DNA from: Clostridiales bacterium
Lineage (GTDB): Bacteria > Bacillota > Limnochordia > Darwinibacteriales > B1SED10-159
DNA length: 33,619 nt
Assembly (NCBI GenBank): GCA_003551965.1
Contig: PUOC01000058.1
Coordinates: forward strand, 1-33,619
Direction of reading: 5' to 3'
Below, piece by piece: positions 7,962 to 33,619 of the stretch. The number at the start of each line of letters is the position of its first letter. Position 1 is the stretch's first letter. A model generated the notes under the pieces. It was not told the DNA's origin. It saw only the letters and a list, made by a program, of their open reading frames with translations, and did not search any database. The position numbers and the translations under genes are program-made.

Positions 7962-8571
7962 CAATACACGCCTCCTTTTTGTCTTATCCAACAGGACCGT
8001 TCCTCTGCTATGCCTCCTTTGCTGGAAAGTGAACAGCACACGGCGGTCAAACCCCCCCGCAACCTCCTGGCATGCCAGCTGCTGCCGCCATGTTTCGCAC
8101 CACCGCGGCCCAGGCCCAATGACAATGCCCATATTTTGGCAATACCTGTCAATGCTCTCTTATTCTGTCAATCTATTCCATTCGCCGGCGCTGCCATCAC
8201 CCGACGAGAGGATTTCCTTCCGCCACGGATCATCATGGACCGGGTTTCAAACTGGCTCCGGTGCGGCTGAACACACACATCCGGCAGCGGCAACGCTTAG
8301 ACTCGCTGTTCATTCTATTTGCGGTGTTTATAAATTTCTGCGTTTTGTCACCACTTCCTGCCGGCATCGGAAGATTTTGCGGACATCCTGCCGGCACGAA
8401 GAGAGTCCAGAGGCACGATTCACACAGAAGCGCCCAAGGGGCGATACCCCGATACAGGAAGGTTCTGGCGTCGTTCTCTAGAAGGCGTCGATATGAGCAC
8501 GGTGAAACGACCGCAACTGCCCTGCCGCGATCGCCGTTTTGAGCTTCATATTCCTATGGGAGGTTATGTTC
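7962..8571. promoter_or_regulatory. Divergent intergenic region, binding protein / OmpA-like gene
   Basis: About 610 nt with no gene. Two perfect TTGACA hexamers occur on the minus strand (8166-8171 and 8147-8152, 19 nt apart) without a clear -10 for either. On the plus strand a TATAAA (8329-8334) is a possible -10 for the OmpA-like gene, with only a poor -35. The 11-bp direct repeat TCCTGCCGGCA occurs at 8356-8366 and 8386-8396, 30 nt apart, about three helical turns. The first copy is framed by CTTCC/GGAAG. These are operator candidates only. Confidence 0.3.
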
Positions 8572-8763
8572 ATGTTCACCCGTACGACTGCATTGCTGCT
8601 TGCTGCCGTCTTTGTTTTGGCGTCCATGGCAGGAACCGCTGCAGCCGGTGAAGACTTTCCCGGCAGCGAAGACCACCCTTTGGTCTCTAGGTTCCCCGGC
8701 TCGTTCATCTACAGCTGGGAATACCGGGTATTCGATGCCCTCGTCGTACCCACCGGACCATAG
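8572..8763 (+). CDS. Fragment 1: signal peptide and start of the first DUF4892 module
   Basis: 63 residues. MFTRTTALLLAAVFVLASMAG is a clear Sec signal with a likely AAA-GE cleavage site, followed by SEDHPLVSRFPGSFIYSWEYRVFDALVVPTGP and TAG. The DUF4892 start signature (HPLVSR-x-PGS) is visible. The rest of the module is in the next frame, so alone this fragment cannot fold as the domain. Confidence 0.6.
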   Translation: MFTRTTALLLAAVFVLASMAGTAAAGEDFPGSEDHPLVSRFPGSFIYSWEYRVFDALVVPTGP

Positions 8764-9437
8764 TGGAAGAAGAGCAGCCCGATGAAGGACCACTGCCGGA
8801 CACAGCCGCAGCCGCCTCCCGGGGCCGTATGTACGTACCGGAAGACGGGATCATGGCCGAAGGTGCCGTGACACAGCTGACGTACGTTGCACCGGAAGGG
8901 CACTCCGTTTTGGAAGTTCACCGCAGCTATGAACAGGCCTTTGCGGACGCCGGGTTTGAAATCCTCCACAGTGCCAGCGGCGAAGGGGACATCGGGCCCT
9001 ATGAAGCCTGGCACATAACCCGCTATGGTGCCGGCCCCGAACACCGCGGTTACCTGCTGCGTGAATCCGTGGAAGAACAGTATTTGGCAGTGCGTCTAGA
9101 GCGGACCGAAGGCGATGTCTATGCCGCCCTTTATGTCACGTATAGCGAAGGCGGTGAATTCCCCGGCCAGCCCGTAACGCAACTGGATATCGTGGAGGAA
9201 GAGACCATGGAAGAAGGACAGATTGCCGCTCACCCGGACTACGAGCGAACCGAGCCCGATATAGAGCCCATGGCAGAGGAAGATTACGAAGGAAGCAGCA
9301 ACCATCCCGTGCTTTCCCGCTTTTCCGGCTCCTTTATCTATGCCCAAGAACACGATGCTTTTGACAAATACATTCTTCCCACGGGACAGATCGTGGAAGG
9401 CGACCTGCCCGAAGACGACGAAGATATGCCCGACTGA
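8763..9437 (+). CDS. Fragment 2: rest of first DUF4892 module and start of the second
   Basis: 224 residues counted from a GTG at 8763 that overlaps the TAG of fragment 1. There is no convincing Shine-Dalgarno, so independent translation is doubtful. It carries VTQLTYVAPEGHSVLEVHRS and IGPYEAWHITRYGAGPEH of module A, an acidic linker, then NHPVLSRFSGSFIYAQEHDA of module B, and ends at TGA within the acidic PEDDEDMPD linker. Confidence 0.5.
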   Translation: MEEEQPDEGPLPDTAAAASRGRMYVPEDGIMAEGAVTQLTYVAPEGHSVLEVHRSYEQAFADAGFEILHSASGEGDIGPYEAWHITRYGAGPEHRGYLLRESVEEQYLAVRLERTEGDVYAALYVTYSEGGEFPGQPVTQLDIVEEETMEEGQIAAHPDYERTEPDIEPMAEEDYEGSSNHPVLSRFSGSFIYAQEHDAFDKYILPTGQIVEGDLPEDDEDMPD

Positions 9438-9479
9438 GCCGCGGCCCGGCGGCGGGATATCATAAAGCCGGCCCAGGGA

Positions 9480-10238
9480 TTGGCCCTGGAAGGAGAAGTG
9501 ACCAAGCTGACCTACATCGTGCCCCAGGGACGCTCCGCCTTGGAGGTCTACCGCAGCTACAAGCAGGCACTGCATGAGGCCGGCTTTGAAGTTCTTTTCT
9601 CCACCACCGATGCGGGGGAAATCGGACCCTATGAAGCCTGGCACGCGGCCCATTATGGCGACGGGCCCGAACACCGCGGCCACCTCTTGCGCAGTCCCCA
9701 GGACGACTATTATATCGCAGCCCGCTTAGCGCATCCCGAAGGCGACGTCTATGCCGCCATCTATATCCTCTTCAGCGATGAAGGCCGGGATTACCCCTAT
9801 AATGTCCGTGTCCAAGCCGATATCATCGAAGAAGGGACTATGGAGGAAGGCCTAGTCCGTGCCGACACCATGGAGCAGCGTTTGGACATCCATGGATCGG
9901 TGGCAATCCACGGCATTCACTTCGATTTCGACAGCGCGGAACTGCTTCCCGAGTCCGACGAAACTCTAGCGGAAATAGCCGGACTCTTAGCCGATAACGA
10001 CGAACTGGAGCTCTACGTGGTCGGTCATACCGATGATGTGGGCGACACAGCGTACAATCTCGAACTTTCCGAACGGCGAGCCGAAGCGGTCGTGGAAGCT
10101 TTGGTGGAAGATTATGGCGTGGCATCCCACCGCCTGACTCCCTTCGGCGTCGGCCCTACGGCGCCGGCGGCCTCTAACGAGACGGAAGAAGGCCGAGCGC
10201 AAAACCGCCGCGTCGAGTTGGTACAAAGGGCACAATAA
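9480..10238 (+). CDS. Fragment 3: rest of second DUF4892 module and OmpA domain
   Basis: 252 residues in the same frame as fragment 2, so only the TGA at 9435-9437 separates them. The TTG at 9480 is just a convenient start. It contains VTKLTYIVPQGRSALEVYRS and IGPYEAWHAAHYGDGPEH (module B). From about residue 145 it has an OmpA C-like domain: IHFDFDSAELLPES, LYVVGHTDDVGDTAYNLELS, RRAEAVVEAL, and the NRRVELV end. The peptidoglycan-binding Asp (GHTDDVG) and Arg (NRR) are present. Confidence 0.65.
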   Translation: MALEGEVTKLTYIVPQGRSALEVYRSYKQALHEAGFEVLFSTTDAGEIGPYEAWHAAHYGDGPEHRGHLLRSPQDDYYIAARLAHPEGDVYAAIYILFSDEGRDYPYNVRVQADIIEEGTMEEGLVRADTMEQRLDIHGSVAIHGIHFDFDSAELLPESDETLAEIAGLLADNDELELYVVGHTDDVGDTAYNLELSERRAEAVVEALVEDYGVASHRLTPFGVGPTAPAASNETEEGRAQNRRVELVQRAQ

Positions 10239-30662: not shown

Positions 30663-31572
30663 ACCCATCGATTGGACAGGCTGACCGGTCTGATCAGCCA
30701 ACCATGACAGAGTACTTTCCGATAAAATACCCCTCCCTCAGAGAACTCATTCCTCGATCACAGCCTGTAAGGCCATTCACAGATGGTTCGTCGTCTAGGG
30801 CGAGCGAATGCCCCGTCCATAAGCTACACAGAGCTCCATGCGTGTGGTTCGCTCGAAAGAAGCTCAAGTGATAGTCAACGCTGGAACAGACCGGATTGCT
30901 GAAGCAATGCGGCCACCTCTGTTTTAGGAACAAATGCCACTGCCCTGTGCAGCCTTTGCTCACATACGCCATCCGGCACCCGGTTGTGTACCTTCTTTGT
31001 GATAGATCGCTCGCTGCGGGTGCTTTGCCGGAACACAAAGCGCGGCATGGAATAAGTTCGTTGCCAACATAGATCAGCAAAACTGTTTACTAATTGTGGA
31101 ATTTTATTGAAGGTTATTCCTTCCAATTGTGGAATTGTCGTATACATCCAACAAATACGGGAATGGAGGTGGTTGGACGACTTGCAAATGACACTGCGAA
31201 AAGTCCAGGGCCAATGGCTAATTCATGCCACGAGTGGGACACCCTTCCAGGACGATTAGGAATCGATGTTCATTGAGGGCAACGGGGAACACCGTTGCAC
31301 GCCATCCCTGACACCAGCGGAAGAGTAAGCGGCATATTGGGGCCAAATTCCATCGCGGAAACCAAATTCCATGCATCCGATCGCAGGGAAACTGTATGTG
31401 TGCGTGCGTTCACTGCGATACGTCTTTCTCCAAAGTTTTGCCCGGTTCTTTACTTCACCATCGTAACACCAAACGATCCGTCCATCTTGGCATGTTACTC
31501 TCCTCGCAGCCAATCACCACCACCGATGACGCTTTTTCAGCATCACTGCCGTATAGTGCGCGGTGCTGGAAC
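30663..31572. other. Non-coding or degenerate stretch after the uroD-family gene
   Basis: About 900 nt without a convincing gene. A weak hairpin GGCTGA/TCAGCC (30680-30700) follows the uroD-family stop. A minus-strand open frame, 30875-31147 (90 residues, ending FVPKTEVAALLQQSGLFQR), and another at 31256-31513 (85 residues, containing QDGRIVWCYDGEVKNRAKLW) look like remnants. Neither has a good ribosome site or a family I recognise. Confidence 0.35.
31092..31136. repeat. Direct repeat AATTGTGGAATT, two copies
   Basis: The 12-mer AATTGTGGAATT occurs at 31092-31103 and 31125-31136, 33 nt apart (about three helical turns). Between the copies lies the imperfect dyad TTGAAGG-TTATT-CCTTCCAA. It resembles a tandem operator, but no intact gene lies next to it. 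Confidence 0.45.
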
Positions 31573-31611
31573 AAACAAGCCCTCCCCTAGGCAATGGGGC
31601 GGGCTTGTTTT
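31573..31611. terminator. Bidirectional terminator-like hairpin
   Basis: AAACAAGCCC (31573-31582) pairs with GGGCTTGTTT (31601-31610), with an inner CCCC/GGGG pairing. The plus strand continues with TTTTG. The minus strand reads CTTGTTTGTT after the stem, about 90 nt beyond the lipoprotein stop, so it can end that transcript. Confidence 0.65.
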
Positions 31612-31699
31612 GTCCGTATGCTCCCCTGATTCGCGAACGAACACTAGCCGAGACAGTGGGCTCTTCGATGAAGTGCTCCCGATTCTGATCCGGTGCAGG

Positions 31700-32548
31700 C
31701 TACGGTATTTCCGAGTAGCGGATCACAAGCTGTGGGTGCTGGGCAGCGTCGGGTGAACGAGAGCTCCAGAACTCAAAGCCGAAAAAGTCATCTGGAAAAA
31801 CATGCCCCACTCGAACACCGTAGTCCTCTGCTTCTTGGTTCATCCATTGATGAACAATGTCGGTTACGTCCCATTCCAGCCATTCGTCCTCTGCAAAGAA
31901 CTCCTCAAACTCCAAGGAGTCACTGGGGTTGGCGAATACGACAGGTCTTTGGTCCCACGTAGTATCCTCATCCCACGGTTCGAGCACTTGAAATACACCT
32001 ACAGAGCCGGTGGCTATCTCAGTAGTATGAATGAGTAACCGCAGCTTTGCAGAGTGCACCACAATGTCAGCAGCCAGTTCTGGCAGGTGATAATGCACAT
32101 CGAAATGGAGATAACCATTGGTCTTCCAATCGGCGTCTTCACCCCAGTACTCCACCCAGAAAAACTCATGGGGTTCATATTGTTCGGACTTGGCAATGGC
32201 CGTATCCAAAGCAGGACGCAGAACGACGGTTGATGAGGAAACAAAGACCGCCCTGACGGTTTCATTTCCGTCAATGTATATCTCGGTTTGTGCTTCGTCT
32301 TTTTCTTCGACGTTACCCTCCCAATGCCTGAAATACCATCCGGGTGCGGGTTCTGCAGTTAACGTCGCGCTGGCAGCGGCACTGTAAGGATGGGCACCTG
32401 GGCTCGGCGTCACCGTTCCGTGCCCCGTCGGTTCTTCCATCGTCAGAGTATAGGTTGCACCGCCATCGCCGTTTAATAAGGGACATCCAATTGACGTCAA
32501 GGCCAAAACAGCTAAAACCAGATAGGAAAGTGTCCGTAGTTTCACCAT
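31700..32548 (-). CDS. Lipoprotein with Flg_new_2-type repeat and DNRLRE/CBM96-like domain
   Basis: 282 residues. A lipoprotein signal MVKLRTLSYLVLAVLALTSIGC has its lipobox Cys at residue 22. A short bacterial repeat follows (YTLTMEEPTGHGTVTPSPGAH to GWYFRHWEGNVEEKDEA). From about residue 105 to the end there is a DNRLRE/CBM96-like beta-sandwich: TVVLRPALDTAIAKS, LHFDV, AKLRLLIHT, VFQVLEPWDEDTTWDQRP, EWDVTDIVHQWMN, FWSSRSPDAAQHPQLVIRY. Such domains bind glycans at the cell surface, so a polysaccharide-contact role is likely. The start at 32548 has GGGAGGG 7 nt upstream. It probably shares a transcript with the small ORF upstream. Confidence 0.88.
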   Translation of the reverse strand: MVKLRTLSYLVLAVLALTSIGCPLLNGDGGATYTLTMEEPTGHGTVTPSPGAHPYSAAASATLTAEPAPGWYFRHWEGNVEEKDEAQTEIYIDGNETVRAVFVSSSTVVLRPALDTAIAKSEQYEPHEFFWVEYWGEDADWKTNGYLHFDVHYHLPELAADIVVHSAKLRLLIHTTEIATGSVGVFQVLEPWDEDTTWDQRPVVFANPSDSLEFEEFFAEDEWLEWDVTDIVHQWMNQEAEDYGVRVGHVFPDDFFGFEFWSSRSPDAAQHPQLVIRYSEIP

Positions 32549-32607
32549 AGATAGCCCTCCCTGTTTGCAGATGAACCAGAGTTAACAGGGTCCTCCCAAC
32601 AGGCTTC

Positions 32608-32784
32608 TTAACGATACCTCATACAACTCCATTGACCCGTATGCCACAGTAGCCTAGGGGCTCCGACCAAGAGCCACAGCCACTGCTCTGCAGCGGTCCA
32701 CCAACCTGTGGGCCTACCTCCGACCTGACGCCCTAACGCAGCCGGTCCCGCAGACAGCGATACAAGCCACTCCCTATGGTCCAT
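32608..32784 (-). CDS. Trp-rich small protein, 58 residues
   Basis: A complete small ORF, ATG 32784 to TAA 32608, with a near-ideal Shine-Dalgarno (GAGAGGAGGT, 4-5 nt from the ATG) and the good promoter at 32865-32893 about 75 nt upstream. It begins MDHREWLVSLSAGPAALGRQ. Seven of its 58 residues are Trp, mostly in TGWWTAAEQWLWLLVGAPRL, an amphipathic or membrane-touching stretch. It has two Arg/Tyr residues at the very end and no signal peptide. It lies 59 nt before the lipoprotein gene on the same strand. I do not recognise a family. It could be a membrane-associated small protein or a regulatory leader ORF. Confidence 0.5.
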   Translation of the reverse strand: MDHREWLVSLSAGPAALGRQVGGRPTGWWTAAEQWLWLLVGAPRLLWHTGQWSCMRYR

Positions 32785-32864
32785 TCTGACCTCCTCTCCC
32801 GTAGTTGGGCATTGACAAGCTTCTTGCAGCCGAAAATCAAATCCTCCACTTTCTTCTCATTTTT

Positions 32865-32893
32865 ATTATATATGTACGAAATCTCAAACTCAA
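32865..32893 (-). promoter_or_regulatory. Sigma-70-type promoter for the small ORF / lipoprotein unit
   Basis: On the minus strand TTGAGT (32893-32888), exactly 17 nt, then a perfect TATAAT (32870-32865), in the most AT-rich patch of the window. The predicted start of transcription, near 32858, leaves a leader of about 74 nt before the 58-codon ORF and about 310 nt before the lipoprotein. Confidence 0.7.
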
Positions 32894-33359
32894 CCGAATT
32901 TCAATTTTTTCTGTTATCTTGAGCCAGATGCAACGGGCGTCGGCCTAGTTCACATGGCACACTCTGCCTTGGCACTGCATGTGACGTCATGTGCAGAATC
33001 TTTCGCAGGCTCTCTCGGGAGTGTCGAAAAAACGGCCGTGGCAGCGTCATTCCAAGACTGGCGAAATGTCCTTAAAAGGGTTACGCCGGCCTAGCGCTAT
33101 CCGTATGGGCACGAGAAGGGGTACATCAACACCCTTCTAGATGACCAGGCTCGCCCACGCACACCGGTGTTTCGGGCTGCGGTGCGAGACATTGCGCGAA
33201 AAGCGTTGCCCCGGCTCGGCAGACCAGCTCGTTTCGCGGGCACAAACCCATGCAACCGGTCTCTAGTCCCGTTCGTGGCCATCAAAAACTGCCTGCCATA
33301 TGTTCGGTAGATGAGTCGTCGGCCGGAGGCTGTTCAGTGATGATACTGAATTAAGCTTT
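32894..33359. other. Intergenic stretch without visible genes
   Basis: About 470 nt. The open frames are short, lack ribosome sites and have no recognisable motifs. I see no RNA gene, repeat array or insertion-sequence end. Confidence 0.4.
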
Positions 33360-33619
33360 TCAAGACTGTTCCACTCTGACGCCAGCCCCAAGAACGATCT
33401 GTGGAGAAGTCTTAGGTGGTGATGCACGGATTGGCAAGCCTGCCATCACTATCGATGCACCCATGATGGCGACAACTCGTCCTGAACTCTCCACTTCAAA
33501 TGACTTGGGCGCAAAAGCAAAAGGCCCATGGCAGACTTTGCCTTTCTGCCAGGTGTCCGCCAAGCGGAATGCGTTACGTGGCGTCGATCTGGCTTCTAAG
33601 CCCACCATATTTCTCGCGG
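33360..33619 (-). CDS. Unrecognised open frame, partial at the window edge
   Basis: The minus-strand frame is open from the window end to TGA at 33360. An ATG at 33608 would give 82 residues, but no Shine-Dalgarno is seen, and the frame continues upstream off the window. It contains RLADTWQKGKVCHGPF, SSGRVVAIMGASIVMAGLPI and the end PQIVLGAGVRVEQS. There are no motifs I can name. It may be the C-terminus of a larger gene or a chance frame. Confidence 0.2.
   Translation of the reverse strand, partial: ARNMVGLEARSTPRNAFRLADTWQKGKVCHGPFAFAPKSFEVESSGRVVAIMGASIVMAGLPIRASPPKTSPQIVLGAGVRVEQS

Follow-up and report, generated by a model that had tools for sequence, protein, structure and literature searches.

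A putative upstream open reading frame in the leader of a surface lipoprotein gene from a Clostridiales bacterium

In the translational attenuators ermC and cat, which have leader peptides, translation of the upstream reading frame opens a hidden downstream start. In the RNA phage MS2, a long-range pairing between the coat and replicase regions hides the downstream start until upstream translation takes place. For the toiL uORF, located upstream of topAI-yjhQ in E. coli, it has been proposed that the downstream ribosome site is masked by a structure, an effect that would be relieved by a ribosome on the uORF (PMC12121999). The locus considered here, a 58-codon ORF (ORF58) ahead of a surface lipoprotein gene, resembles toiL-topAI by its short leader ORF and, in some foldings, by a predicted pairing over the downstream ribosome site. 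It differs from this system in that the pairing of ORF58 is predicted only and varies with the ends chosen for folding, the two loci being likened by arrangement and not by sequence. Compared with ermC, cat and MS2, no stalling motif was identified in ORF58, the fold depends on the stretch considered and relatives were not found in the genomes searched. As to the DNRLRE/CBM96 lipoproteins, the downstream gene is a member by the NCBIfam and Pfam cut-offs, both of which it clears, and ORF58 stands outside this family.

The window analysed, that is, the whole stretch of DNA, comprises 33,619 nucleotides. On its minus strand, a promoter, a Shine-Dalgarno (SD) sequence, ORF58 and the lipoprotein gene follow each other in this order, all in line, with 59 nt between the ORF58 stop and the lipoprotein gene. 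The first-pass annotation had described a perfect TATAAT with 17-nt spacing, a strong SD sequence and a short Trp-rich ORF, and these features are all present. The -10 box matches at 6/6 positions and the -35 box at 4/6 (total 10/12), the SD motif has eight bases, and ORF58 encodes 58 residues including seven Trp. The downstream product, correctly recognized at that stage as a surface lipoprotein, contains LTSIGC, which we take to be a lipobox-like motif, a Flg_new_2 domain (residues 39-104) and a CBM96/DNRLRE domain (residues about 129-277). The features are as follows.

32865-32893, minus strand: sigma-70-like promoter, TTGAGT-17-TATAAT (sequence scan)
32789-32796, minus strand: SD sequence GAGGAGGT of ORF58, 4 nt 5' of the ATG at 32784 (sequence)
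32608-32784, minus strand: ORF58, 58 codons with 7 Trp, ATG at 32784, stop ending at 32608 (ORF list)
32756-32780, minus strand: ORF58 codons 2-10, predicted pairing segment in some foldings (varies with the chosen ends)
32544-32562, minus strand: lipoprotein translation start, from the SD sequence GGGAGGG through the start codon, predicted to pair with ORF58 codons 2-10 (folding; varies with the chosen ends)
31700-32548, minus strand: lipoprotein gene, 282 aa (ORF list and domain matches)

ORF58 probably just belongs to the leader preceding an ordinary surface lipoprotein gene, its peptide not being a selected protein and any effect being exerted in cis. The promoter near 32865-32893 would drive an mRNA in which about 310 nt of leader precede the lipoprotein gene, transcription presumably starting near 32858, a position assumed from that of the promoter. 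ORF58 would lie inside this leader, and ribosomes may well start there, given the strong SD motif. At most, they would act in cis, either by keeping the leader open or by being loaded near the lipoprotein start. The observed parts of this reading, namely the anatomy of the locus, the absence of coding signal and the fact that relatives were not found, speak for it; the rarity of an SD motif combined with an ORF (about 0.4% of shuffles), the Trp excess and the small number of informative codons count against it.

The window contains six TATAAT hexamers, and only that of 32865-32893 has a -35 box matching at four of six positions. With both strands considered, 31 of 100 dinucleotide shuffles of the entire window yielded at least one such promoter, compared with 10 of 1000 dinucleotide shuffles of 32549-33619 (1071 nt) on the minus strand alone. 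The promoter is locally uncommon, yet not decisive. When the 311-nt leader was shuffled 2000 times, 5.75% of the shuffles contained an ATG ORF of at least 58 codons; ORFs of at least this length beginning with any of three start codons were found in 16% of leader shuffles, and ORFs of at least 50 codons together with a five-base SD motif in about 0.4%. Thirteen other ATGs have a six-base SD motif in front, nine of them being gene starts according to our own classification. Because the SD motif is strong and the combination of ORF and SD is rare in shuffles, ribosome initiation at 32784 is plausible. As for Trp, picked as the residue of interest only after the sequence had been seen, at least seven residues per 58 were found in none of 337 shuffled ORFs and in 3 of 927 overlapping stop-free 58-residue segments taken from the six frames of the window, among which ORF58 itself may be counted. 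The ORF58 frame takes seven of nine TGG triplets.

What this locus mainly illustrates, as it stands, is that a good promoter and a good SD motif are not sufficient for a small ORF to be a protein gene. With 22 window genes as the training set for codon scores, ORF58 was compared with 258 real-gene segments and 1290 shadow-frame segments. It scores -0.17 per codon, a value as low as which none of the 258 real segments (themselves in the training set) was found, and which 441 of the 1290 shadow segments reached. When synonymous choice only was considered, which in ORF58 rests on 49 informative codons, the score was -0.21; none of the 258 real segments was as low under leave-one-out scoring, and 1002 of the 1290 shadow segments were as high. 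Moreover, the G+C content by codon position is flat in ORF58 (0.60/0.62/0.59), compared with 0.62/0.43/0.68 in the window genes. Native-type codon use is absent from ORF58 by both the per-codon and the synonymous-only scores against the 258 window segments. A gene that is new or was acquired recently could look like ORF58 too, because the informative codons are few and the neighbouring lipoprotein gene, a real one, also scores low (-0.078).

Relatives of ORF58 were searched in 60 related genomes, in 72 class genomes (own genome included) and in genome_contigs; the genome sets hold two others of the same family and none other of the same genus. No homologue with kept frame and start was found in these collections. 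At E<=0.01, the peptide matched its own genome and, weakly, 4 of the 71 other class genomes (5 of 72 in all), and two of these four matches contain an internal stop. A conserved small protein was rejected, since the weak matches are about as numerous as those of the reversed peptide used as a control (3 of 72 class genomes at E<=0.01). In genome_contigs and viral_contigs, 593 and 68 pattern matches, respectively, were obtained, none of which was confirmed. ORF58 has no match in Pfam, PHROGs or PDB sequences, and NCBIfam yielded just TIGR03750 (14 bits, E 0.036) against a cut-off of 70.75. A realignment of eight loci with composition correction off gave E-values down to 3e-6 (L012, L013), which are not taken as evidence, the loci, from a 24-kb set, having been preselected for similarity. 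Among the alignments listed, which cover the locus of ORF58 itself, L013 and a part of L012, the similarity looks compositional.

At the DNA level, the own genome contains no other match to the 352-nt leader stretch (E<=0.001), and the matches of this stretch in other genomes of the 60 cover just 16-46 nt, with E 0.018 or worse. None of the genomes searched yielded an orthologous leader; because the sets hold no other genome of the same genus, the lack of relatives weighs little. It fits a young or fast-changing locus and does not by itself refute a regulatory role. The leader is apparently lineage-specific and ordinary, with ORF58 as a putative upstream ORF whose translation is possible. If translated, ORF58 would be a further example of a leader ORF, from a lineage that has been little sampled, with a surface protein tuned by upstream translation. 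A mobile or phage origin of 32549-33619 was rejected, no phage or plasmid match being obtained at E<=0.01. Conserved synteny was also rejected: the UROD-like neighbour has matches of only 28-37% identity in G001-G003, and the sole DNA match of 30663-33619 to these three genomes (E<=0.001) is 91 nt within the lipoprotein gene, in G003.

The first-pass annotation also raised the possibility of a translated leader controlling the lipoprotein gene. Such a leader is compatible with the strong SD motif and with the position of ORF58, the mechanistic support being solely a predicted pairing that depends on the ends of the fold. When 32858-32509 is folded, the lipoprotein SD-ATG region is 0.085 unpaired and pairs with ORF58 codons 2-10, whereas dinucleotide shuffles of the same stretch average 0.32 (sd 0.09), with 8 of 600 as low. 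None of 200 mononucleotide shuffles reaches so low a value, nor does any of the 18 other gene starts in the window when taken with the same flanks. Covering the ORF58 start brings the site to 0.34 unpaired and reduces its opening cost from 13.3 to 10.7 kcal/mol; masking the whole of ORF58 opens it by 0.19, which 8 of 200 shuffles match. From these values, it can be proposed that codons 2-10 hide the lipoprotein start and that a ribosome starting or stalling on ORF58 would open it. We consider this unlikely, however. Over 24 choices of fold ends the unpaired value ranges from 0.076 to 0.34; it is 0.20 when the fold ends at 32480 and reaches 0.33, the null level, when the end is 32440, 69 nt deeper in the lipoprotein gene than 32509. 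With three other flank sets, 5, 6 and 2 of the 18 other genes show values no higher than that of the lipoprotein gene. Moreover, the site of ORF58 is itself as costly to open (13.7 kcal/mol), and a modelled ribosome positioned on either the Trp cluster W28-W36 or the stop leaves the lipoprotein site closed (0.075 and 0.087, respectively). Folded without the lipoprotein start, the leader has a z of 0.46, its folding being equalled or bettered by 69 of 100 shuffles. That a lineage-specific uORF of this type, hiding the lipoprotein start by its early codons, would switch the surface protein on upon ribosome loading or stalling there seems more doubtful still.

The WW and WLW motifs of the peptide recall a Trp-sensing transcription attenuator, but we hold this to be extremely improbable: no intrinsic-terminator-like site was found in the scan between ORF58 and the lipoprotein gene, Rfam shows neither a Trp leader nor a T-box, and we know of no link of the downstream lipoprotein gene to Trp supply. 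At gathering scores, Rfam gave no match over the whole window, and the sole match of a permissive search of 32400-33100 was sR47, sub-threshold (E 4.2) and inside the lipoprotein gene; a known RNA element in the leader was rejected on these grounds. The terminator and Rfam scans give attenuation no support. A chance ORF in an untranslated leader, with no translation at all, is a tenable, if less probable, reading than the cis-acting or neutral leader ORF that we prefer. The missing coding signal and relatives argue for it, as does the codon-score rank of ORF58, 31 among 62 ORFs of at least 40 codons from two parts of the window, most of which are shadow frames in our judgement; the eight-base SD motif at good spacing argues against it. 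It should be noted that the likelihoods given to the preferred reading and to its rivals overlap, an untranslated ORF and a cis-acting ORF both being partly within the former. The promoter, the strong SD motif and the in-frame Trp excess could also be taken to indicate a real orphan small protein, perhaps membrane-bound and a partner of the lipoprotein. This is improbable in view of the non-native codons and of the relatives not found, and the own genome has lipoprotein paralogues yet holds no other leader-like DNA. No transmembrane segment was found in ORF58 either, its Kyte-Doolittle maximum over 19 residues being 0.57, when the usual transmembrane threshold is about 1.6. The membrane-associated partner suggested by the first-pass annotation is thus unsupported.

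With the lipoprotein as query, 17 matches were obtained in its own genome, the gene itself included, and nothing was confirmed in the genome_contigs scan. The matches are mostly single-domain; the own-genome paralogue C122 spans both domains in one frame. The upstream regions of 11 of the 16 other own-genome matches were compared as nine stretches, eight of which were readable upstream and one of which has 11 bases. With gene starts set mechanically, one of the eight (L039) has a 25-codon ATG ORF directly after AAGGAGA and another (L040) a 10-of-12 promoter-like site. A leader common to the paralogues was rejected, as nothing else in the own genome matches the window leader at E<=0.001. The lipoprotein (31700-32548, minus strand) is itself fairly rich in Trp (11 of 282 residues, against 2.1% in window genes), and its synonymous codons are atypical. 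In G003, near a contig end (C373, 5588-5710; L031), 41 residues are 66% identical to lipoprotein residues 170-210, with 79% DNA identity over 91 nt, an identity higher than in the remaining listed matches, the gene itself excepted.

Gene-poor stretches flank the lipoprotein gene on both sides. The regions 30663-31699 (about 1.0 kb) and 32894-33619 (0.7 kb), the latter reaching the contig end, have no closed ORF of at least 40 codons with a native-like score, and neither is duplicated elsewhere in the own genome. Elsewhere in the window, three successive ORFs occupy 8539-10238 on the plus strand (8539-8763, 8763-9437 and 9480-10238). The former begins with a signal-peptide-like start and the latter has what is presumably an OmpA-like end. 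Similar segments can be seen by eye among the three (HPLVSRFPGSFIY / HPVLSRFSGSFIY; AVTQLTY / EVTKLTY), which suggests gene pieces duplicated in tandem and perhaps frame-shifted. The two longer ORFs, 8763-9437 and 9480-10238, score as coding.
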